A stretch of 32,887 nt of DNA from a virus (IMGVR_UViG_3300030329_000783:7229-40115); one strand, 5' to 3'; positions 7,202 to 25,206 are shown, counted from the first letter of the stretch. Program-made: numbers and translations. The notes: generated by a model from the sequence alone, not told the origin.

Positions 7202-7952
7202 TTTTATAGAACTCATCCTTGACTTTACCTGAATACTTATATTCACCTATGTGGGTTATTTCTTCATCACATAAAGCATGAATTTTACCCCCTATTGATG
7301 TCCATAATTTACAAAAGTAAAAGTCTTCTCCCATATAAGTTTTGTTTTTTGGACTCCAATAAGTGTCAAAAAAATTATAATAATTAGGTCTATCTATTAA
7401 TTCTCCATTAACTAATGTTTTTTGACTAATAGTAAGTTCTTTGTAATGTTCCTTCAATTTATCAAATGCTGACCTTTTTATCATCATCATACCTGTTGGG
7501 CCTTTGTTTACTTCAATAAAACCATCTTGAGGTCTTATGTCGTTTACATCTGGTATTTCTATTGGAAATAAATGTCCCATACTATGAATACTATCGTCAG
7601 GCCTTGTTTCGAAATCTTTTCTAAATTTAGCATCTGTTTTTTGTTTCATAGGATAAGGTATTAAAGATACTTCATGAGGTGATTTGAAAAGTCTATAAAC
7701 CGATCTTGTGCTAAATTCTATATCAGAGTCTATAAATAACATTTGAGCAGCATCTGAATTCATAAATGCAGAAGCACATAAGTTTCTTCCTTGTGTAACT
7801 AAAGAAGATTTCATTAGTTGAAAAGTAATTTTTGTTTTATTTAAAATACATTCTTTTTGTAAATCTAAACAAGCTTTCATATAATGAATCGAAACTTCAG
7901 AATGCACAGGAGTGCATACCATCAAATGATCTTTATTTACTTCGTTGGACAT
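7194..7952 (-). CDS. GT-A fold (family 2-like) glycosyltransferase
   Basis: A 252-aa cytosolic protein with no membrane segment. FIDSDIEF at 73-80 contains the acidic DSD triad (75-77), which in GT-A enzymes binds the metal and nucleotide sugar. GPTGMMMIKRSAFDKL (151-166) and MGEDFYFCKLW (207-217, with an ED pair) resemble the acceptor/catalytic half of phage GT2-like enzymes, and His234 could be a late metal ligand. It overlaps the end of the GT4-type gene by 20 bases, so the two are coupled. Donor and acceptor cannot be told from sequence. A role in glycosylating virion or host-surface glycans is inference. Confidence 0.75.
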   Translation of the reverse strand: MSNEVNKDHLMVCTPVHSEVSIHYMKACLDLQKECILNKTKITFQLMKSSLVTQGRNLCASAFMNSDAAQMLFIDSDIEFSTRSVYRLFKSPHEVSLIPYPMKQKTDAKFRKDFETRPDDSIHSMGHLFPIEIPDVNDIRPQDGFIEVNKGPTGMMMIKRSAFDKLKEHYKELTISQKTLVNGELIDRPNYYNFFDTYWSPKNKTYMGEDFYFCKLWTSIGGKIHALCDEEITHIGEYKYSGKVKDEFYKID

Positions 7953-8877
7953 GAATTACTCCTTTTAAGAAACCTTCCCAATTTCTACTAATGTTTCGCC
8001 AATCATAAAATCTTTTATAATATTCTTGTTGAAATTTAAACACATTTGTTAAATCATTTTGTAAAATTTTTTTTGCTTCTACACAACACTCTGCTACTTG
8101 TTGTGCTAATTTAGCTTTGTTCTGTGTAAAGGGAATGTAGACAGGAAACTCTGCACAAGTTTCAAACAATGCACCTAGATCCGTGGTTATTAATAATTGA
8201 CCCGCTGCTAATGATTCCATTGCAGATATACAAAATGTTTCCTCCCAAATACTTGGAAAACAGTTTACATCATATTCTTTTAGCTTTCCCATAAGAGTTT
8301 TGTGATCGCAGTAACCCATGTAATTTACATTAGGTAAGTCTTTTGCTTTTTGATAAAGATCTTGATATTGACTATCATTTTGATCTTGAAATTGTTTACC
8401 ATAAATTATTGTGCTTGAATAAACATCTAAAGTAATATCTGGATCTCTATCTACTAAAGATTCCATAGCTGTTAAGGCTACTTCTAAACCTCTCCATGGT
8501 GTAGAGATGTAACACATTTTTAATTTTTTTTTCGGAGTGAAATCTGTTTTTAATTGTAATTCTTCATAATCAATCCCGTTTTTTATAACAGTGCATTTTT
8601 CTTCTGGTATTTTAAAAAACATACGGTACTTTTCATAACTCCAATGACTATTAAAAACATACCAATCATATTTTGAATGATTCTCTTTATTTTGAAACCA
8701 AGGTGCTAGATTTGGTTGATCGTAAGAATTTTTTAACCAAAGTATATTTGCTTTAATAGGATCTAAAGGTTCCTTTTCTGGTATAGACGTAGTTATTTGA
8801 ACAGAATCAAGTATACCTTGATTCGCATATTTTTTTAGATAGGCTAATTGTAATTCAGTTCCACCAGCAGGTTGCAT
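7933..8877 (-). CDS. GT4-like glycosyltransferase (GT-B fold)
   Basis: A 314-aa protein. The N-terminal PAGGTELQLAYL has the loop common at the start of GT4 enzymes. IKNGID (98-103) and YISTPWRGLEVAL (123-135) match the linker and first Rossmann strand of the C-terminal domain. WEETFCISAMESLAAG (211-226) carries the E-x7-E signature (Glu213, Glu221) that contacts the nucleotide sugar. It is shorter than most GT4 enzymes because the N-terminal domain is reduced. It starts by TAATG/ATGA-type coupling at the stop of the 76-aa gene and overlaps the GT2-like gene. Substrates unknown. Confidence 0.8.
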   Translation of the reverse strand: MQPAGGTELQLAYLKKYANQGILDSVQITTSIPEKEPLDPIKANILWLKNSYDQPNLAPWFQNKENHSKYDWYVFNSHWSYEKYRMFFKIPEEKCTVIKNGIDYEELQLKTDFTPKKKLKMCYISTPWRGLEVALTAMESLVDRDPDITLDVYSSTIIYGKQFQDQNDSQYQDLYQKAKDLPNVNYMGYCDHKTLMGKLKEYDVNCFPSIWEETFCISAMESLAAGQLLITTDLGALFETCAEFPVYIPFTQNKAKLAQQVAECCVEAKKILQNDLTNVFKFQQEYYKRFYDWRNISRNWEGFLKGVIHVQRSK

Positions 8878-9578: not shown

Positions 9579-9739
9579 GATAAAAAATAATTAAAAGCTT
9601 CTCTTTCGTTTTTTTGATCTTGTTGATATGAAGTATTCAATTGGTTTTGTAAAGTTTCTAAAGCTAAATTAATTTGTCTAAAAGAATCTGTGTTATATTC
9701 TTTTGGTGGTTCAGGTAAAAATACTTGCACTTTAGCCAT
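9575..9739 (-). CDS. 54-aa conserved small protein
   Basis: ATG at 9739 overlaps the stop of the 637-aa gene (TAATG), and TGA at 9575-9577 overlaps the next ATG. The product starts MAKVQVFLPEPPKEYNTD and continues as a Gln/Asn-rich amphipathic helix. I associate this type of small protein with marine podovirus tail modules, from memory. The double start/stop coupling supports translation. Function unknown. Confidence 0.6.
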   Translation of the reverse strand: MAKVQVFLPEPPKEYNTDSFRQINLALETLQNQLNTSYQQDQKNEREAFNYFLS

Positions 9740-11652
9740 TATCTTCTACCATCAGGTTGTATATCAAATCTAAATTGACCAAATCTCCAACTTTCATTTA
9801 AACTATCATTTTCTATTTTTATAGCAGCTAATCTAGCTCTTGCCCTTGTGTCTACCTTATCTGTAGATGATGTAATTGTAAATGGTCCTAGGGGTGAACC
9901 TTGTTGCACATTAGCAGGATAATCTCTTAACTCTAAAGTTACTTTTGCATTTCCATTTATATATTTAAAGTCAGGAATAAATCTTCTTACTTTTATAAAA
10001 AATTCTCCATCTCCTTGAGCATCTAAATCAAAGTCACCAGATTTTATAAATGCAGAAATAGCATTTACTGTACCATCAGCCAATACTTCATTTGTTCCTT
10101 TTTCATGATCAAAAACTCTTGAGGCACCATTTGATACTCCTTGAACTGTAGGTGTATTTGGAGCTAAATTAGCTGTAAATTCAGTTGCAATAGGATCTTC
10201 AAATACATGGCTATCTTCATAAGTTGTTCTTGCCAAAGTTCCTGTAGTCCATGTTTGTTCAGCATAGTTGTAAGTTACGACTCTATCTATAAAGTTAGAA
10301 CTTGCGCTAGGATAAAACCATGAGATCTCAGTATATAAACTATTGTGAGATCCACAAGTAAGTTCAGAACCATTCGCAAAATTTAAACCTGGAGTATTAT
10401 CATTTGTTTGAAATACAAAATCTTCTACAAGTGAACTTAATGATTTAACAGTTCCATCAAATACAAAAAACCCACCCGAATCTGACATCCAATAAACGGC
10501 ACCATTAGCATATACAATGGCGTGTTGACCTATGCATCCACAGTTTGATCCAACTTGTCTAATACTAAATGTAAAAGGTGGACCTACAAACTGCATTAAA
10601 TACGCTGAAGTATCAGTTAAAATAAGAATATAATCTTTCGCCTTTGCTGCTCCTACTATTTTCGTTCCACTATCAATTCTAAAAGAACCTGCTGTGTTTG
10701 TTGATGTTGCTGTATAGTCGGTTAAAGATTCTTGATCTGAAAATCTAATAAACATTTTATCCTGTGTAGTTGAGGTTCCAATTGTAGTTTCAGTGCCTAA
10801 CACAATTAAGTGCCTATCTCTATCAGAAACCATTGTCATAACAGATTTGGTAGGAGCTCCAGATAAAATAGCTGCTCGTGTAGCTACTCCAGTGTTTGGA
10901 TTCCAAGAAAAAGTTGCACCGTTTTTAATCGTTGCAATTAAAAGTTCACCAAAATTATCAAGTGACCATGATCCCGGATCTAAAATTACGTCTGATGACG
11001 ATCGAGCAGTTCCCCATGTTGAAGTTGACCAAGTTCCTGCACCCCATCCAAAACCAAAAGTTTGTTGTAATGGTCCTATTTGAAAGTAAGCTTTTAAATC
11101 AAGTGTCCCATTGTTTGTAGTGCCTGAGCCAGATTCATTAGCAGCCATTTGAATAGTAAAAGTAGTAACAGTAGGTGTTGATTTTACTTCAAATAAAATA
11201 TCATCAAAGTCCGCAGCAACATATCCTGTTTGAGCTGCATTAAATGATCCTGCGTTTACAAATGTAACGATGTCACCTGAATTAAGATTGTGACTTCCTG
11301 AAGTAGTAATTGTTACAATATTAGATCCACTAGTCGTTGATATATTACAACCTGATTGTGCTAATGAAGTATCAAAAGGTGTTATGTCAAAATAATCATC
11401 ACCATTATATACATATAAAATTTTGTTTGTGCCGAAAGCTATGTATCTTCTTCCTTCTAAATCTGTCCAGCTATGAGAAGCCCTTGCTGCACCTATTAAC
11501 TGTTTGTTTTTTATTTCAGACCAACCACCAATTTTTTCAGGCATGGTGTATCTAAATCTTACAAAATCACCATCTACCCATTGGTTTTCTGCTCCTGAAG
11601 CAGAAGCTTGTTTATTAAATCCTGGTGCAAATTGTACTTTTGTTAAAGGCAT
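9739..11652 (-). CDS. Tail nozzle/stopper-like protein (P22 gp10-like role)
   Basis: A 637-aa beta-rich protein. The opening PLTKVQFAPGFNKQASASGA is typical of the large proteins that continue the tail below the adaptor in P22-like and SU10-like podoviruses. Repeated blade-like segments follow (RRYIAFGTNKILYVYNGD near 68-85, RHLIVLGTETTIG near 280, GAVYWMSDSGGFFVFDG near 384), fitting a propeller-like fold. An Ig-like insertion appears around residues 105-185. It is longer than P22 gp10 (about 470 aa), partly because of that insertion. It lies directly after the oxygenase block. The assignment combines pattern recall and context. Confidence 0.65.
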   Translation of the reverse strand: MPLTKVQFAPGFNKQASASGAENQWVDGDFVRFRYTMPEKIGGWSEIKNKQLIGAARASHSWTDLEGRRYIAFGTNKILYVYNGDDYFDITPFDTSLAQSGCNISTTSGSNIVTITTSGSHNLNSGDIVTFVNAGSFNAAQTGYVAADFDDILFEVKSTPTVTTFTIQMAANESGSGTTNNGTLDLKAYFQIGPLQQTFGFGWGAGTWSTSTWGTARSSSDVILDPGSWSLDNFGELLIATIKNGATFSWNPNTGVATRAAILSGAPTKSVMTMVSDRDRHLIVLGTETTIGTSTTQDKMFIRFSDQESLTDYTATSTNTAGSFRIDSGTKIVGAAKAKDYILILTDTSAYLMQFVGPPFTFSIRQVGSNCGCIGQHAIVYANGAVYWMSDSGGFFVFDGTVKSLSSLVEDFVFQTNDNTPGLNFANGSELTCGSHNSLYTEISWFYPSASSNFIDRVVTYNYAEQTWTTGTLARTTYEDSHVFEDPIATEFTANLAPNTPTVQGVSNGASRVFDHEKGTNEVLADGTVNAISAFIKSGDFDLDAQGDGEFFIKVRRFIPDFKYINGNAKVTLELRDYPANVQQGSPLGPFTITSSTDKVDTRARARLAAIKIENDSLNESWRFGQFRFDIQPDGRR

Positions 11653-11702: not shown

Positions 11703-12176
11703 CTATTTTTGATATACTATATTTAATACTAATCTAAATTCTTCATCAGTGCATGTTGTCCCTGAATGAAAAGTATCACTTGGAAATGTAATTAATGTAT
11801 TAGCTTTTGATTTTATTTTTTCATTTTTAAATCTAGTGTAGCCATTATTTGTATTTAAATATAAAATAGAGGTCATAGCATCAGGGGATGAGCTATCTTG
11901 ATGATATTTATGTTCTATTATTTTATTGGTTCTAGTTAATAAATTAAGTTTAATTCTAATTAAGTTTTCTATTTTTAATTTATAAAGCAAAGGTCTTAGA
12001 ACATCAAAATGATTACTTGAAATATTATTGTCTATGTAAAATATATGGACAAATTGTTTATGTTTATCTTCAGCATCATTTACACCTTGTATGTACCATT
12101 GAAACAAATGGCTTAACACCACTTCATTTAAATTTTTAAAATCTACTTTATCTAAAAAATTTCTTCTTAATTTCAT
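11703..12176 (-). CDS. 2OG-Fe(II) oxygenase-like protein (sixth of the array)
   Basis: 157 aa, shorter than the usual ~200. The C-terminal half shows the double-stranded beta-helix ligand pattern: His92-Gln93-Asp94 within HKYHQDSSSPDAMTSILYLN, a strand TLITFPSDTFHSG with His137 as the distal ligand, and Arg148 in EEFRLVLNIVY for 2-oxoglutarate. The N-terminal ~80 residues are helical and not recognised. It shares one base with the preceding oxygenase gene. All the key residues are present, so it may be active; the substrate is unknown. Confidence 0.65.
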   Translation of the reverse strand: MKLRRNFLDKVDFKNLNEVVLSHLFQWYIQGVNDAEDKHKQFVHIFYIDNNISSNHFDVLRPLLYKLKIENLIRIKLNLLTRTNKIIEHKYHQDSSSPDAMTSILYLNTNNGYTRFKNEKIKSKANTLITFPSDTFHSGTTCTDEEFRLVLNIVYQK

Positions 12177-12790
12177 TACTCTAGTAATATGTTGAAGGCA
12201 ATGGAAATTCTATCTTTTGTTTTATTTAAATTAGGTTTTACTCCATGCGCTAGACAACCAGGAAAAATAAATAAATCGTTTTCTTCTATATTCATTAATA
12301 TTTTAGAGGCTGTGTATGGTGTAAATGTTTTTTTACAATTAGCCCATGAGCTATCTATAGTGTTAAATGGGTTTTCAAAAAATATCTCTCCACAATTTTT
12401 TGGAGTTTTTACATAATAAACACAAGAGATCTGTGCGCCACCATGTGTGTGCACTTCATTATAATCTTTGTAACTATTTATATTTGCCCACATAGAACCC
12501 ATTTTAGCAATACCACATAAAGACATAGTATTCATATATTTTAATAAGTGTGGTTTTATTTGTTCTTGTAATTCTAAAAAATCATCTTGTTTTAATGAAG
12601 GAGCAACTGCACCAGAAGAAGAAAAAATAACAGCATCTATATCATTTGATTGCCAACCCATATTTTTAGGATTACTTATATTTCTACCATTGTCTTTCTT
12701 TTTCAAATTTTTTAAATATTTTACTATACTATCTACATTTAAATTTAATTTAGTTTTATAAAGACCTACACAAAATAAGTTATGAATCAT
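12176..12790 (-). CDS. 2OG-Fe(II) oxygenase (TIGR02466-type)
   Basis: 204 aa, with the features of the phage/bacterial TIGR02466-like 2OG oxygenases: NEVHTHGGAQISCVYYV (111-127), where His114 and His116 replace the canonical HxD, FENPF (139-143), and NDLFIFPGCLAHGVKP (171-186) with His182, followed by Arg194 in DRISIAFN. It resembles the 200-aa oxygenase at 13862-14464 more than the other four. It starts two bases after the previous stop. Whether the His-x-His form binds iron normally is uncertain; I believe this arrangement is usual for the family. Confidence 0.75.
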   Translation of the reverse strand: MIHNLFCVGLYKTKLNLNVDSIVKYLKNLKKKDNGRNISNPKNMGWQSNDIDAVIFSSSGAVAPSLKQDDFLELQEQIKPHLLKYMNTMSLCGIAKMGSMWANINSYKDYNEVHTHGGAQISCVYYVKTPKNCGEIFFENPFNTIDSSWANCKKTFTPYTASKILMNIEENDLFIFPGCLAHGVKPNLNKTKDRISIAFNILLE

Positions 12791-12792
12791 TT

Positions 12793-13380
12793 TTATTTAA
12801 ATTGTTTTCCAGTTACCCAACAAACTAAAGAATTTCTTTCTCCTTTTGTTACTGGTTTGACTTCATGCAACATATAAGATGGAAATAAAATTAAGTCTCC
12901 TTGCCCTTGTTTCATTTTTTCTCCTTTATCACCCTCATATATAAATAGTTCGCCACCTTCATATTTTTTAGGATCAGTAAGTTGTATACTTAAAGATAGT
13001 TTTCTTACGATCATGTTTGTAGCTCTATCTGTATGTTTTCCATATTTATCACCAGGAGCTTTGTAATTTGTAAATTGAAAACCTTCGTTTAATCCAAAAA
13101 TATCAAACTTAAAAAATCTATCATTAAGATTTAAAACAACATCAGTTACTTTTCTAAAAGCCCAATCTAAATCATCAGTAGCATAGAGCCAACAAATTTT
13201 ACTTGATCTAATACTATCTATTTTATTTTTTCTTGTTCTACCTTGTATTAAACCTTTAGAATGTGCAATCTTGATTATCTTATTACACTCTTCTTTTGTA
13301 AAAACTTTTTGCCAATAAGCAAAACTACATACTTGATCTAAATAGAGATTCCAAGCTGGGTTGTTAATAGGTTTTTTCAT
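12793..13380 (-). CDS. 2OG-Fe(II) oxygenase (prolyl-4-hydroxylase/PKHD-like)
   Basis: 195 aa. The clearest oxygenase of the block: an N-terminal helix FTKEECNKIIKIA (27-39) typical of prolyl-hydroxylase-like enzymes, then YGKHTDRA with His116 and Asp118, YEGGELFIYEG (140-150), GDLILFPSYMLHEVKP (161-176) with His172, and Arg182 near NSLVCWVTG. The complete HxD...H...R set predicts iron and 2-oxoglutarate binding. Family members hydroxylate proline, lysine or small molecules; the substrate here is unknown. It overlaps the previous gene by four bases (ATGA). Confidence 0.85.
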   Translation of the reverse strand: MKKPINNPAWNLYLDQVCSFAYWQKVFTKEECNKIIKIAHSKGLIQGRTRKNKIDSIRSSKICWLYATDDLDWAFRKVTDVVLNLNDRFFKFDIFGLNEGFQFTNYKAPGDKYGKHTDRATNMIVRKLSLSIQLTDPKKYEGGELFIYEGDKGEKMKQGQGDLILFPSYMLHEVKPVTKGERNSLVCWVTGKQFK

Positions 13381-13877
13381 AATATTTCTATATCACCAAT
13401 AAACACATTTAATGTTAATCTTTCTTTTAAACAATTTAAATTTGTAATGCCATGATATTTTTTACCATCATAGGATATTAAAGAATTAAATTCGTTTCCA
13501 ACAATAATATGTTTTTTCTTATCTTCATTAAACAAAGTTGTTCCAGATTTAATATCACCTTTTGATAAATATATCACCCCTGCTATTATCACATTTTTAT
13601 CATAATGAAAGTGTGTTTTACCTTTTTGTCCATGTTTTATTTTACTAAAATAAACACCAGTGTTCTTAAATCTATATTCATTATTTGTATAATAGTTTTT
13701 TATAACTTTGTTAACTATCAAAGAAAATAAATCTCTATTAGTTTCATGTAATGATTTAGTCCTTAAACCAGGCCAATTATCTTTTCTACTTGGAGGATAG
13801 TATTTTAATTTTTTAGATATATTTATTATATCATCAACATTGTCAAAAAAATTTTCTTTTATTATTGTCGTGTACAT
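13377..13877 (-). CDS. 2OG-Fe(II) oxygenase-like protein (DUF6445-like)
   Basis: 166 aa. The metal motif THFHYDKNVIIAGVIYLS (88-105) contains His91 and Asp93, His142 lies in GKKYHGITNL and Arg153 in KERLTLNVFIG. The early WPGLRTKSLHE (35-45) resembles the start of DUF6445-type proteins, from memory. It overlaps the upstream oxygenase by 16 bases and the downstream one by four, so the three are translationally coupled. Likely an active dioxygenase or a structural relative; substrate unknown. Confidence 0.7.
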   Translation of the reverse strand: MYTTIIKENFFDNVDDIINISKKLKYYPPSRKDNWPGLRTKSLHETNRDLFSLIVNKVIKNYYTNNEYRFKNTGVYFSKIKHGQKGKTHFHYDKNVIIAGVIYLSKGDIKSGTTLFNEDKKKHIIVGNEFNSLISYDGKKYHGITNLNCLKERLTLNVFIGDIEIL

Positions 13878-14464
13878 TTTGTCATGATGTTAAAATTATA
13901 TGCTATTGTAATTCTAGTTTTATTAGAGTTTTCTTTTTCTACACAATGTTCTAAATAAGATGGAAACACTATTACACTTCCTGGAATAGGTTTATAAAAA
14001 TATCTTTCATCAAAAATTTTGTTTTCATCACTTTTTATATCATTACTTCTATTTGCAAATGGTCTTTTAAACCATAGTTTAGCATTTTGATTTTGATCTG
14101 ATTTTAAAAAATAAATTGCAGATAAACTATGTGCAACATGATTATGATATTCTTGAAAATTATTTTTATTATAAACATTAAACCAACCACTTATACAACT
14201 AAAGCTATAATTGATTTTTAATTTATTAATATAATTTGCTAGAGAATTCATTACGAAGTTATTTATAGTTTTAAATTTATTATCTTTTAATACATTATGT
14301 TTATCAATTGTTGTATATGTATCTTTTGATACCCAGTTTTCACCACCACTTTTAATTTTTTTCTTCAATTTAGTAATATGATTTACTAAATTTTTTTCAA
14401 ATTTATTGTGGTCATCAAAAAAATCTTGTGCCACTATACTAGGAAATAAGTAATTAAAATTCAT
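13862..14464 (-). CDS. 2OG-Fe(II) oxygenase (TIGR02466-type)
   Basis: 200 aa. QEYHNHVAHSLSAIYFLKS (104-122) has the His-x-His pair (107, 109), WFKRPF (131-136) matches the aromatic strand of the family, and GSVIVFPSYLEHCVEKENSN (162-181) with His173 precedes Arg184 in TRITIAYNFN. It is the closest relative in the window of the protein at 12176-12790, which suggests an old duplication. The start overlaps the methyltransferase stop by four bases. Lys/Asn/Ile-rich composition, as in the rest of this block. Confidence 0.75.
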   Translation of the reverse strand: MNFNYLFPSIVAQDFFDDHNKFEKNLVNHITKLKKKIKSGGENWVSKDTYTTIDKHNVLKDNKFKTINNFVMNSLANYINKLKINYSFSCISGWFNVYNKNNFQEYHNHVAHSLSAIYFLKSDQNQNAKLWFKRPFANRSNDIKSDENKIFDERYFYKPIPGSVIVFPSYLEHCVEKENSNKTRITIAYNFNIMTKCTRQ

Positions 14465-15108
14465 AGTATTTTAACCAAAGCTTGTCTTTCTCCAAACATT
14501 TCATATTTATATTTAATTTTATTTTTTCTTACAAATTCTTGCCATGCTTTAAATTCTCCTTGTTTCCAACCTACATAACTTAAATATTCATCAAATAATA
14601 TTAAGGTGCCAGAGGTTAATTTTTTTGAAGTTAGTATATTTAAAATTTCTTTAGTTGATTCATAAGTATCACAATCTATATGCACAAAACAAATTTTAAC
14701 ATTATTTAATTTTAAAAACTTTGGTAAAGTATCCTTAAACCAACCTTTAATTAATTTTACATTTTTATTAACCAAAGGTTTTTTTCCATTTAAAGAATAA
14801 TTTCCTTTAGCAAAATAACCACCTTTCCAATCTTCTTGAAAACCTTCAAAAGAATCAAAACCAAACCAAGTTTTATTTGGATATCTTTTAGAAAAATAGT
14901 TTATGCTTTTTCCTTGATGAACTCCAAACTCCATACATAAACCATTTATTTTTGAATGTTTTATTTTTTCAAGAGCTATCTCCCACCAACCAAAGTCTGT
15001 TACAATAACATCTTTTAAATATTTTTTTATGTAATTTGCAGATTCTTTAGCAGCTTCTTCATATAAAAAATCATACGCATCTTTGTAAACAAATAATCTC
15101 TTTCTCAT
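14461..15108 (-). CDS. TylF/MycF-like SAM-dependent methyltransferase
   Basis: 215 aa. A class I fold: CMEFGVHQGKSINYFS (58-73) is the SAM-binding motif I, FGFDSFEGF (82-90) carries the acidic ribose-binding residue, VHIDCDTYESTKEIL (142-156) is the metal/substrate strand typical of macrocin O-methyltransferase relatives, and LFDEYLSYVGWKQGEF (171-186) is the late acidic motif. TylF-family enzymes methylate sugar hydroxyls, and phage relatives are thought to act on glycans, so a sugar substrate is plausible but unproven. It sits between two oxygenases in the same operon. Confidence 0.8.
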   Translation of the reverse strand: MRKRLFVYKDAYDFLYEEAAKESANYIKKYLKDVIVTDFGWWEIALEKIKHSKINGLCMEFGVHQGKSINYFSKRYPNKTWFGFDSFEGFQEDWKGGYFAKGNYSLNGKKPLVNKNVKLIKGWFKDTLPKFLKLNNVKICFVHIDCDTYESTKEILNILTSKKLTSGTLILFDEYLSYVGWKQGEFKAWQEFVRKNKIKYKYEMFGERQALVKIL

Positions 15109-15120
15109 AGAATGTATATT

Positions 15121-15549
15121 TCACTTATACCATCCTGCTAACATAAATCTATTACTTTTTTTTATTTGTTTTACTTCATGGTACATAACACCATTACTAA
15201 AAATCACTATTCTCCCTGGTCTAGGTTTGACTGTGATGTCTTCAATAACAGTTTCTCCACCATCAAAGTCATTATTTAAATATATTAAAAAAGAAAATTT
15301 ATCACCATTATCAATATGCATTTTCATATAAGAGTCCACAGGCCACATAACTATTTCACAATTATCTGGTTCTAAAAAATTATAGAATTTAAATTGATTG
15401 TTTATTCTTTCAAATATATTTTTTGGTTTAATTTTTACAGTAAATGTATTTCTATATTTAGAAGCTGGTGATTGTTTAAATTTTTCTATGAACTGATTAC
15501 ATTCTTCTTTAGATAAAAAATTATCTACACGAATAAAAGTTTTATTCAT
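15121..15549 (-). CDS. 2OG-Fe(II) oxygenase (compact, PKHD-like)
   Basis: 142 aa, a minimal version of the fold. It begins with the FLSKEECNQFIEKF helix (11-24) seen in prolyl-hydroxylase-like proteins. KMHIDNGDKFSFLIYLN (76-92) holds His78 and Asp80, DGGETVIED (96-104) follows, PRPGRIVIFSNGVMYHEV holds His124, and Arg134 lies in SNRFMLAGW. All four key residues are present. It is the first gene of the oxygenase block, 26 bases after the stop of the 137-aa tail protein. Confidence 0.8.
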   Translation of the reverse strand: MNKTFIRVDNFLSKEECNQFIEKFKQSPASKYRNTFTVKIKPKNIFERINNQFKFYNFLEPDNCEIVMWPVDSYMKMHIDNGDKFSFLIYLNNDFDGGETVIEDITVKPRPGRIVIFSNGVMYHEVKQIKKSNRFMLAGWYK

Positions 15550-15575: not shown

Positions 15576-15989
15576 TTATCTTAATTCTGAAATATCTACT
15601 AAATCCCAAGTTTGATTTTCTTCATTCCAATGATATCTTTGATCATTATCAAATTGTTCTTGTGTTAACTCTGGTTTAGGAACAGGTGGTTCCCACATAC
15701 AAGTTGTCTCATTTAATGTCCAAGATGGGTAATTTTGTTGTGGAATAAAAGCATCCTTTGCTTCATCAAACGAATAACCTATTCCAGCAAAATTTTTTCT
15801 AAATGGTGTTCCCCCTAAAATATGTTCTCCACCTCTAGTATTATAAGAAGTTTGTTTCCAAACATCGCTTGTACCATACATATTATTTAAAAAATCTACA
15901 CCAGCTTGTTCTGTTGTAGCAACATCATTACTTACTACTTCAACTGTTTCAACTATATTTCCATCATTTAATTTTGCAAAATGTGCCAT
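15576..15989 (-). CDS. Conserved tail-module protein (MAHFAKL family)
   Basis: 137 aa. It begins MAHFAKLNDGNIVETVEVVS and includes WKQTSYNTRGGEHILGGTPF (64-83) and FRKNFAGIGYSFDEAKDAFI (83-102), then a Pro/Trp-rich end. I recognise this as a family found near tail-fibre genes of marine phages, including cyanophages. Its role is unknown; it may be a fibre-associated or chaperone-like protein. It follows the glycine-rich adhesin by six bases. Confidence 0.7.
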   Translation of the reverse strand: MAHFAKLNDGNIVETVEVVSNDVATTEQAGVDFLNNMYGTSDVWKQTSYNTRGGEHILGGTPFRKNFAGIGYSFDEAKDAFIPQQNYPSWTLNETTCMWEPPVPKPELTQEQFDNDQRYHWNEENQTWDLVDISELR

Positions 15990-15995
15990 AATATT

Positions 15996-16850
15996 CTACG
16001 AAGTATACGTCCCGCTCGCTGTAAATTTTATTACTGTAAAATCACCATCTGTTGAAATTGTTGGAGATCCAGTAGTCGTTCCAGTATAATCTGTTGTAGG
16101 CACTCTTAAAATTACCACTCCAGATCCTCCTGTCCCTTGTCCACTTGCTCCAGTTCCAGTATTTGCTGCACCATTGGCATTTCTACTTGTAGATGGAAAT
16201 TGATTTGATTCACCACCAACCGCATAAGTTACACTAGCACCTGTTATAGAAACTGCTAAACCAGGGCCATTTGCAGTATCTCGCCCTCCTGCGCCCGCAG
16301 CTCCCCCGCCAGCTCCGCCATATGGGTTTCCACTAAATCCTACACTACCTGGATATCCTTCTCCTGAAGTTCCAGATCCGCCTGCGCCGCCCGAATACCA
16401 GCCACCGCCGCCCGATCCGCCCGAGCCTCCCGGTCGATTGTCTCCATCCGATCCTTCACCGCCGCCTGATGTTGATACAGTAGATATGTCAGGTCCTGAA
16501 AATGAACTTGCAGCTCCTGCAGAGTGTCCACTTCCACCTGCTCCTATTGTAGCAGTATATTGTGCACCTTGAGTTAAAGTTAATTGAGATTGTGCTGACG
16601 CACCGCCTCCAGAAGTTGATCCAAATGATGTTCTTAAACCTCCAGCTCCAGATCCAGCTTCTCTATTTCCGCCCTGACCTACTGCGTTACCGCCTCCTCC
16701 TGCAACAACTAAGAAATCACATGTTCCAATAAAAGGGACTCCACCTCCTGAACCAAATCCTAAGACCTGATAACCAAAAGATTTACCTCTTCTCGATTGT
16801 GTATTTCTTGTGTTCTTACCTGAAGTAAGTTTATTGTTTAAGTTTCTCAT
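15996..16850 (-). CDS. Glycine-rich tail adhesin
   Basis: 284 aa. After a basic N-terminal ~25 residues, CDFLVVAGGGGN (44-55) starts a glycine-rich domain that runs to about residue 245, densest at 139-190 (GGSGGSGGGGWYSGGAGGSG). It ends with a beta segment, GSGVVILRVPTTDY (242-255) and DFTVIKFTASGTYTS (270-284). Similar glycine-rich proteins in phages are receptor-binding tips, where glycine runs can form polyglycine-II bundles as in phage S16 gp38; this analogy is inference. The DNA is locally much richer in GC than its surroundings because of glycine codons. Confidence 0.7.
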   Translation of the reverse strand: MRNLNNKLTSGKNTRNTQSRRGKSFGYQVLGFGSGGGVPFIGTCDFLVVAGGGGNAVGQGGNREAGSGAGGLRTSFGSTSGGGASAQSQLTLTQGAQYTATIGAGGSGHSAGAASSFSGPDISTVSTSGGGEGSDGDNRPGGSGGSGGGGWYSGGAGGSGTSGEGYPGSVGFSGNPYGGAGGGAAGAGGRDTANGPGLAVSITGASVTYAVGGESNQFPSTSRNANGAANTGTGASGQGTGGSGVVILRVPTTDYTGTTTGSPTISTDGDFTVIKFTASGTYTS

Positions 16851-16861
16851 ATCCCAATTCC

Positions 16862-18067
16862 TTATGCGTCGTTAGCCGCGTCAGTAGTAAAGAATAATTT
16901 AATACCTAAAAGTTTTGCATCTGCTGTTAAAGTGTCGTCAGACACATCTCTAGTTATTTGAAAGAACACTTGTTCATCTGTACTAGGAGAACCAGCTATA
17001 GTAACTGCTCCACTTTCTGCTGTAACGTCTAAATCGTTTGCCGTACCGCTGTGTGCTTTTGCTGTAGGTGCAACTGCTGTTCCAAAAGCAGTATTGCAAG
17101 AATCATTATCTGCTATAGCAACTCCTGCTAAATCCCAAGATACAGTCCCTGTGTTTGTTGAGTCTGCTGTAAAAAATGCTTGAAAAGTTACTGTTCCTTC
17201 GTTCCAAGATTTTGGAAAAGCCACAGCAAATTGAGCATTCTCATCGGAATCTTTATCAAAATCCATAGTTTTGATCTCTGGACCATTTGATAATTCTACT
17301 TGACCAGCTTCTGCTCCAGCAGTGGTATTAGCATACATAGCAACTGCAGGAATCCATATAGATTCTTTACCTGCAACTTTAACTGCAGCGGTTCCTGATT
17401 TTAAAACTCCAGTTCCTTTTGGATTAATATTTATGTCTACGTTTGTGTCGTCTCCTGTTGCAGAAAGGGTAGGACCATTACCTGTCGCTGCATTAGCTAA
17501 TGTAAACTCATTAACTGCAGATCCAGTTTCTGTAAATTTTAATAATTCTAATGTACCATCGCCAAGTGCATTTCCATTAACATCTAACTGACCACCTAGT
17601 TGTGGAGTTGTATCATCTACAACAGCACCAATCATAGGTATTTCTTTGATATCAGGATTTGTACCATCGTTGGCAGTAGCAAAAACTATTTTATCACCTT
17701 TATCAGTAGCTGAAAAAGTTACAGATGAACCTGAACCAGAAACATATTTAAATTGAACTGTGTAAGCACCTGAAGTTGAGTTTCTTAAATAGTAAAAAGT
17801 TTGAATATCTAAAGGAATAGTTACAATTCTATTTCCTGTAATAGAACCTGTAAATTCTATCATTCTGTGAGCAGCTGTGTCACCCGTTCCAGAGTCTGTG
17901 ATAGCTAGAGTAGTAGTTCCAGCACCACCTGCAATTGATTGTGTTGTAAAGCCGCCAGCTATTTGTTCGAAGACTTGTAAATTAACATTTGTTTTATCTC
18001 CCCATGTACCTGAGTTTTCACCGGTAGCTTGAAGTTCTATACCTAAAGGTGAGTAAGTTGATGCCAT
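16862..18067 (-). CDS. Tail fibre or virion structural protein
   Basis: 401 aa, Thr/Ser/Gly/Ala/Asp-rich and beta-structured. The N-terminus STYSPLGIELQATGENSGTW matches a start common to marine phage fibre proteins. LGGQLDVNGNALGDG (157-171) and NVDININPKGTGVLK (209-223) resemble repeat motifs of phage fibre shafts. The C-terminal ~170 residues form a separate beta-rich domain that may be the exposed part. Preceded by a good promoter-like sequence and an AAGGA ribosome site. Confidence 0.7.
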   Translation of the reverse strand: MASTYSPLGIELQATGENSGTWGDKTNVNLQVFEQIAGGFTTQSIAGGAGTTTLAITDSGTGDTAAHRMIEFTGSITGNRIVTIPLDIQTFYYLRNSTSGAYTVQFKYVSGSGSSVTFSATDKGDKIVFATANDGTNPDIKEIPMIGAVVDDTTPQLGGQLDVNGNALGDGTLELLKFTETGSAVNEFTLANAATGNGPTLSATGDDTNVDININPKGTGVLKSGTAAVKVAGKESIWIPAVAMYANTTAGAEAGQVELSNGPEIKTMDFDKDSDENAQFAVAFPKSWNEGTVTFQAFFTADSTNTGTVSWDLAGVAIADNDSCNTAFGTAVAPTAKAHSGTANDLDVTAESGAVTIAGSPSTDEQVFFQITRDVSDDTLTADAKLLGIKLFFTTDAANDA

Positions 18068-24558: not shown

Positions 24559-25206
24559 TTATTCTTTCTTTTTATGATACATCTCGTAAAACATGTTGTC
24601 ACTATCCTCAGTTACAAAGTCCGTATCTTCTGCATCCCAGTAAGTATTTTGGACTTTATAGTCAGGCCAACTGTTATCAGTAGTATAGCTATTAATGTGC
24701 CACAAAATACGATTATTAGGCTGAGCTGCATAATTACCGTTATCAAGCTCCAATATATGTGCACACTTATGTTCTTGAGGAATTTCAGAGTGTTCAGTAT
24801 CCAATATGTTAACGTCTGGATGAGCCCAATCGATCGTAAATAAATATTTACCATGATAAAATTTTTTGTCTAAACCAAGGTATTTACCCTTTACACCATC
24901 CAGCCAATCAAAACAAGTAACACTAGGCCAATAGCTAAAACTATTCCACAGTTCCAATTCATGTACTTGCATATTCGGCACGTCGGATCTATCAAAACTT
25001 TTTTGATAAAATGCTGATATAGGTAAACGCCAGTAGCACGCACCATTTGGTAACATGATGTTAAACAAGAGCGCACGGCCTGATATTGATGTGAGACCGA
25101 AGATAACACAGTCTTCGCTTTCTCCATGATGTTTTTTAAGGTCATAAAGATACTCCTTTCTAATTTTGCAGTATATCGGTGGAAGATTTGCGTTCAGGTA
25201 TGACAT
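24559..25206 (-). CDS. Conserved unknown protein of marine phage structural modules
   Basis: 215 aa, rich in aromatic residues (Trp, Tyr, Phe) and acidic towards the end. The start SYLNANLPPIYCKIRKEYLY (2-21) is one I associate with a widespread marine phage family without known function. ACYWRLPISAFYQKSF (56-71) and DNGNYAAQPNNRILWHINSY (near 155-174) are other striking parts. GGAGAG stands about 12 bases before the ATG. No catalytic or membrane motif. Two alternative minus-strand frames inside it look like shadows. Confidence 0.65.
   Translation of the reverse strand: MSYLNANLPPIYCKIRKEYLYDLKKHHGESEDCVIFGLTSISGRALLFNIMLPNGACYWRLPISAFYQKSFDRSDVPNMQVHELELWNSFSYWPSVTCFDWLDGVKGKYLGLDKKFYHGKYLFTIDWAHPDVNILDTEHSEIPQEHKCAHILELDNGNYAAQPNNRILWHINSYTTDNSWPDYKVQNTYWDAEDTDFVTEDSDNMFYEMYHKKKE

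Follow-up and report, generated by a model that had tools for sequence, protein, structure and literature searches.

What would a marine phage gain from carrying a tandem of divergent oxygenases inside its tail module? The question arises from a stretch of viral DNA of 32,887 nucleotides (hereafter the window, meaning the whole stretch analysed; bases 7229-40115 of the 40,115-base IMG/VR virus record IMGVR_UViG_3300030329_000783), where seven consecutive genes on the minus strand (11703-15549) match the profiles of six 2-oxoglutarate (2OG)-Fe(II) oxygenases and one TylF-like methyltransferase. This seven-gene cassette has a small gene on its tip side (15576-15989) and the nozzle gene (9739-11652) on the other. 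Taken together with its relatives, the slot between the fibre-tip and nozzle genes looks like a cassette of tailoring enzymes that, in the clearest cases, was exchanged jointly with two fibre-tip proteins, and both features appear to be new. We give slightly less than an even chance to the reading that the cassette decorates the phage's own tail-tip (receptor-binding) proteins, which would be its predicted substrate.

The capsid protein is 79% identical to that of Pelagibacter phage HTVC023P and 71% to that of HTVC027P, and the nozzle protein 55% and 54%, respectively. Because of these identities, the window can be assigned at the level of protein sequence to a fragment of an HTVC023P-type pelagiphage, an abundant ocean virus infecting SAR11 bacteria. 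Phage records held no DNA nearly identical to it.

Six oxygenases with conserved active sites

All seven open reading frames were verified at the coordinates given, and their products were searched against Pfam, PHROGs and NCBIfam. Gene A (11703-12176) matches phrog_274 (E 7e-41) and, weakly, PF13640 (5e-5). Gene B (12176-12790), of the HxH...H...R pattern, matches PF13759 (2e-19) and exceeds the TIGR02466 cut-off, and gene E (13862-14464) is a second TIGR02466-like oxygenase that matches PF13759 (8e-18) and falls slightly below that cut-off. Gene C (12793-13380; PF13640, 7e-16) has as its closest solved relative the PKHD-type hydroxylase PiuC/YbiX, a cellular enzyme rather than a member of a phage cassette; at 83.6 bits against an NCBIfam cut-off of 143 it was rejected as a curated PKHD-type hydroxylase and is best called PKHD-like. 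Gene D (13377-13877) exceeds the cut-off of DUF6445 (PF20043), with further matches to phrog_1644 and, weakly, PF13640, and gene G (15121-15549) matches PF13640 (3e-13) and phrog_2297. The sole non-oxygenase, between E and G (14461-15108), is a TylF-like S-adenosylmethionine-dependent methyltransferase (PF05711, 2e-14), found among close relatives in locus L005 only (loci are cited by our L numbers); gene D is absent in L004, L005, L088 and L089. By these matches, the oxygenases span four or five subfamilies.

The prediction that all six are enzymes draws on the conservation of their active sites, which was read from family alignments of distant relatives. The ligands H92/D94/H137 of gene A are invariant and its R148 is kept in at least 90%; H91/D93/H142/R153 of gene D form an invariant HxD...H...R set; and H116/D118/H172/R182 of gene C, H78/(D80)/H124/R134 of gene G and H114/H116/H182/R194 of the PF13759 genes B and E are invariant or nearly so. 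Genes A, C, D and G thus carry HxD...H, and B and E carry an invariant HxH...H, a variant with an unproved iron-ligand set. The late arginine that binds 2-oxoglutarate (R148, R194, R182, R153 or R134) is kept across the families of all six. Gene A, the weakest Pfam match among the HxD genes and the one of the six chosen for modelling, gave an AlphaFold (AF2) model with a mean predicted local distance difference test score (pLDDT) of 95.6 and the 2OG double-stranded beta-helix fold. Its top match in the PDB is PHD2 (Z 15.9, 2.7 Å across 142 residues), and bacterial prolyl-4-hydroxylases, again cellular enzymes and not parts of a phage cassette, are among its nearest solved relatives.

Further, the oxygenases are under purifying selection where this is measurable. 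Ratios of nonsynonymous to synonymous substitution (dN/dS, Nei-Gojobori) against close relatives are 0.13-0.19 for B, 0.10-0.15 for C, 0.16-0.18 for E and 0.09-0.15 for G, and the methyltransferase, at 0.46, is under looser constraint; the comparison covers these five genes, A and D being without a close orthologue in the relatives compared.

Much of this had been anticipated by a first-pass annotation, made from the window alone, which had recognised six 2OG oxygenases among seven genes of a tail module, with all key residues kept in each, HxH in place of HxD at 12176 and 13862, and at least three subtypes. The profile matches and alignments bear these points out, including TIGR02466 above cut-off for 12176 and DUF6445 above cut-off for 13377, as does the fold of gene A. 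It took the retained residues to speak for function, and B, C, E and G are under purifying selection. The coupling of the genes by overlaps of 1-16 bases holds in part, since overlaps do reach 16 bases, but some junctions are gaps of 2 and 12 bases.

Oxygenase arrays in related phages

Is an array of this size exceptional? Loci were retrieved by the nozzle protein and, separately, by the fibre protein encoded at 16862, the two sets having a few contigs in common, and oxygenases were counted with profiles made from the window's own genes plus relatives. The 46 loci anchored at both flanks hold a median of 5 oxygenases in the slot (0-9), the 44 fetched by the fibre protein a median of 6 (1-11), and both sets together (90 related loci) a median of 5-6 (0-11); nearly all HTVC023P-type loci that span the slot hold 1-11. 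When 60 cassette members were sampled, an independent Pfam match was found to PF13640 in 32 and to PF13759 in 18. The ligand motif is present in 240 of 246 cassette 2OG genes; when these are shuffled, 103 have it, and of 169 other open reading frames 12 do. Cassettes hold 246 2OG genes in 208 kb, whereas the surroundings of the capsid gene in relatives hold 11 in 688 kb. These locus counts and the difference in density establish the array as typical of the HTVC023P-type lineage and concentrated at the slot, so that six in tandem, which the first-pass annotation had thought unusual, is the rule among relatives. As separate observations, a protein of about 107 residues and of unknown family lies directly before the nozzle gene in many relatives (L079:5546-5905 and others) and is lacking in the window, and the freshwater phage DSL-LC04, a non-marine relative, has a single 2OG gene amid fibre and lectin genes (L182:19605-20225).

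Rarity was already contradicted by two published papers. Colocated 2OG genes are known in this very lineage: HTVC023P-type pelagiphages were described as carrying eight non-orthologous 2OG families, often nearby one another and next to 'ferrochelatases' (Wittmers et al. 2022, PMC9599517). In the accessible text, those genes are termed nearby rather than adjacent and no linkage to the tail tip is given, whereas in the window the genes overlap and are swapped with tip genes, and relatives add halogenases and transferases. The cyanophage S-SCSM1 carries 24 2OG genes that resemble the cassette in being many, divergent and of the same Pfam families, but their numbering scatters them genome-wide, and the portion of the paper available does not discuss a tail-tip link (PMC9602691).

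Exchange of the cassette with fibre-tip genes

The tip-side flank consists of the small protein at 15576-15989 (phrog_7759), whose tip role is suggested by its position, and a Gly-rich fibre-tip-like protein at 15996-16850 (phrog_2295), both co-inherited with the cassette. The fibre protein at 16862-18067 (phrog_31104) and, on the opposite flank, the nozzle/tail protein at 9739-11652 (phrog_3287) remain with the phage backbone; all four genes lie on the minus strand. Compared with the window, L191 keeps the backbone (96.5% identity for the 16862 gene, 88% for the nozzle), with tip proteins only 35-36% identical and a different cassette (similarity 0.11). Loci L004, L005 and L089 differ in backbone (the nozzle is 40-45% identical, and the 16862 gene 46% in L089) but have tip proteins 84-89% identical and a cassette similarity of 0.49-0.66; where present, their B, C, E and G genes are 82-92% identical. 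Gene A is only 35% identical, which places one break near it, and genes D, E and the methyltransferase have been gained or lost among these loci. Across 52 complete loci, cassette content shows a weak correlation with gene 15576 on the tip side (partial r 0.13, p 0.048) and none with the nozzle or the backbone fibre gene 16862. Inverted cassettes occur in 5 of 6 loci with collar-type fibres versus 1 of 39 others, these loci being partly related, and HTVC027P, which carries a collar protein, has its cassette likewise inverted.

Other tailoring enzymes and the module in T4-like cyanophages

The slot holds more than oxygenases. A Trp halogenase (PF04820, 4e-102) is found in 12 cassettes of relatives, seven genes encode a NodU-like carbamoyltransferase, and three kinds of sulfotransferase, methyltransferases and JmjC proteins also occur. 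Among the cassette genes scanned, no glycosyltransferase was recognised, several small genes there being of unknown family, nor was any sugar-biosynthesis gene. The open-access papers searched included none that joins carbamoyltransferase, halogenase, sulfotransferase and oxygenase in a phage genome.

Moreover, the same tailoring module follows the tail fibres of T4-like cyanophages, an arrangement that appears to be new. Genes for 2OG proteins stand behind tail-fibre genes in Syn33, P-HM2, ACG-2014h and S-RIM8, and together with halogenases in S-WAM1, S-RIM44, Sf-CH11 and Syn10; since the cyanophage records were selected via 2OG or halogenase hits, they speak for recurrence and not for frequency. 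In Syn10, which we take to be the source phage of the halogenase VirX1, fibre genes are followed by two halogenases and then by about ten 2OG, JmjC and DUF6445 genes, mostly annotated as hypothetical (L187:6488-16667). Among solved structures, the cassette halogenase comes closest to that of the viral halogenase VirX1 (PDB 6qgm, 5e-104), which has been studied as an enzyme (Nat. Chem. 2019, doi 10.1038/s41557-019-0349-z). HTVC008M has an inverted 2OG cluster downstream of a baseplate gene. The family of the window's Gly-rich tip protein matches cyanophage gp38-like fibre proteins at 1e-7 to 1e-12, a distant match weakened by the low-complexity Gly-rich sequence.

Overall, the first-pass interpretation is partly supported. 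The search for a similar gene order in marine phages that it proposed returned comparable cassettes in HTVC023P-type loci and in T4-like cyanophages; the other tailoring enzymes, the co-swapping with fibre tips and the cyanophage module had been overlooked.

Genes labelled ferrochelatase and endonuclease V

Members of the same cassettes have been given labels that point elsewhere. The 'ferrochelatase' family, phrog_2954, is that of HTVC023P gp67 (L172:19302-19922) and has an invariant HxD and distal histidine in its alignment. A modelled member (L042:3735-4361; phrog_2954, E 8e-53) reached a pLDDT of 95.7 and matches prolyl-4-hydroxylase and SnoN (Z 15.9-16.8); a chelatase is not among the structure matches listed for it, a listing that does not exclude one. 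Searches of HTVC023P gp67 and of the 023Pt and HTVC008M copies with the ferrochelatase Pfam profile gave no match at E up to 0.1. The profile-profile comparison of the family with gene C is weak (37%), so it is the fold model that carries the assignment of phrog_2954 as a 2OG-fold protein. The ferrochelatase label is thus without profile or model support for the phrog_2954 and phrog_3531 cassette neighbours. The family has been reported as an enriched 'ferrochelatase' in seasonal phages (PMC11561400), and it appears to be the same kind of protein as the 'ferrochelatase' partner of 2OG genes in PMC9599517. Two published accounts of auxiliary metabolic genes rest on this label, and the genes concerned look like 2OG oxygenases.

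Similarly, phrog_274, the family of gene A, is labelled 'DNA endonuclease V' in many cyanophages. Neither gene A (searched at E up to 10) nor the 'denV' of Syn33 (E up to 0.1) is matched by the endonuclease V profile (Pyr_excise), and the model of gene A has the 2OG fold; the label was rejected. Elsewhere in the window, a 215-residue protein between the capsid and fibre genes (24559-25206) matches the phrog_3704 'ferredoxin' family (E 5e-75), possibly another mislabel, and a glycosyltransferase gene (phrog_2170; 7933-8877) lies beyond the nozzle gene, at the same relative place as HTVC023P gp77 and HTVC027P gp80.

What the cassette may do

If the tip proteins are the substrate, a replaceable tailoring cassette, co-transcribed late, would act on them late in infection, each enzyme hydroxylating, or methylating after hydroxylation, certain side chains of the proteins encoded at 15576-15989 and 15996-16850. 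The swap of a tip along with its enzymes could then give the phage a new surface chemistry for recognising its host or for stability in seawater. In its main text, the transcriptome study of HTVC027P gives no timing for gp72-gp74. Behind this reading stand the observed enzyme families, kept active sites, purifying selection, position, swaps of tip and cassette, and tailoring enzymes in relatives. Also in its favour are the weak correlation with gene 15576, the pairing of collar-type fibres with inverted cassettes, the recurrence of the module behind cyanophage fibres and the lack of a recognised glycosyltransferase among the cassette genes scanned. It is favoured because the set is linked to the tip, changes fast and combines hydroxylases, halogenases and group transferases, and a protein substrate is favoured because the fold matches include prolyl hydroxylases, enzymes that act on proteins. 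Mycobacteriophages encode glycosyltransferases that glycosylate their own virion proteins; there too phage enzymes act on the phage's own virion, but by glycosylation and not by oxidation or halogenation.

Several observations weigh against tip tailoring. The exchanged block is contiguous, so co-inheritance is demonstrated and function is not, and linkage alone could suffice. The correlation of cassette content with gene 15576 is weak, and an association with fibre 16862 seen in 33 loci (p 0.002) vanished in the 52. Halogenase presence shows no association with the Trp, Tyr, Pro or other residue content of fibre proteins, and Trp content, the sole direct substrate proxy tried, was negative. 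The carbamoyl-, sulfo- and TylF-type transferases act on glycans too. Finally, an empty site exists, the tip gene and the nozzle of L104:10911-11708 being separated by 13 bases with no cassette.

The alternative that survives best, which we consider unlikely, is that the enzymes modify a cell-surface glycan or another host surface molecule, for instance to block superinfection, the tip linkage arising through a shared receptor. Linkage to receptor-binding genes is compatible with it, TylF-like proteins, NodU-like carbamoyltransferases and sulfotransferases often act on sugars, and there is the glycosyltransferase gene beyond the nozzle; but glycosyltransferase and sugar-biosynthesis genes went unrecognised within the cassettes scanned, and Trp halogenases are ill-suited to sugars. 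A reading of the slot as a general hotspot of recombination, with the cassette as loosely selected cargo carried along by fibre exchange, seems improbable: the cassette's AT-rich content (24.7% GC against 34.8% for the window), gene-by-gene gain and loss, occasional inversion and absence in L104 would fit, whereas dN/dS of 0.09-0.19, the nearly universal ligand motif (240/246) and the marked bias toward tailoring enzymes would not. Quite improbable, too, is a metabolic role in which the oxygenases reprogramme the host through their use of 2-oxoglutarate, iron or small metabolites, as proposed for cyanophages (PMC3037559) and in keeping with the rise of iron-uptake genes in HTVC027P infection (PMC12753301), since it predicts neither 5-6 divergent copies confined beside fibre genes nor tip swapping, and the 'ferrochelatase' partner behind the iron story is itself, by its model, a 2OG-fold protein. 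Action on nucleic acids, in repair or base modification, is suggested by the 'DNA endonuclease V' annotation in some relatives and is highly improbable given the lack of any AlkB-type or TET/JBP-type family match at E up to 10, the 2OG oxygenase fold predicted for gene A and the position in a structural module.

Concluding remarks

Extending the tip-tailoring reading beyond the window, it is possible, if doubtful, that marine phages hold a modular post-translational tailoring system that diversifies the receptor-binding tip of the tail, by a logic analogous to that of ribosomally synthesised and post-translationally modified peptides (RiPPs). Its swappable sets would, as tentatively, comprise hydroxylases, halogenases and carbamoyl-, sulfo- and methyltransferases. 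Cassette-bearing phages exist in culture, and the position of these genes beside the tail-tip genes, together with their exchange, turns the vague label of 'metabolic gene' into a testable claim on the chemistry of the virion.

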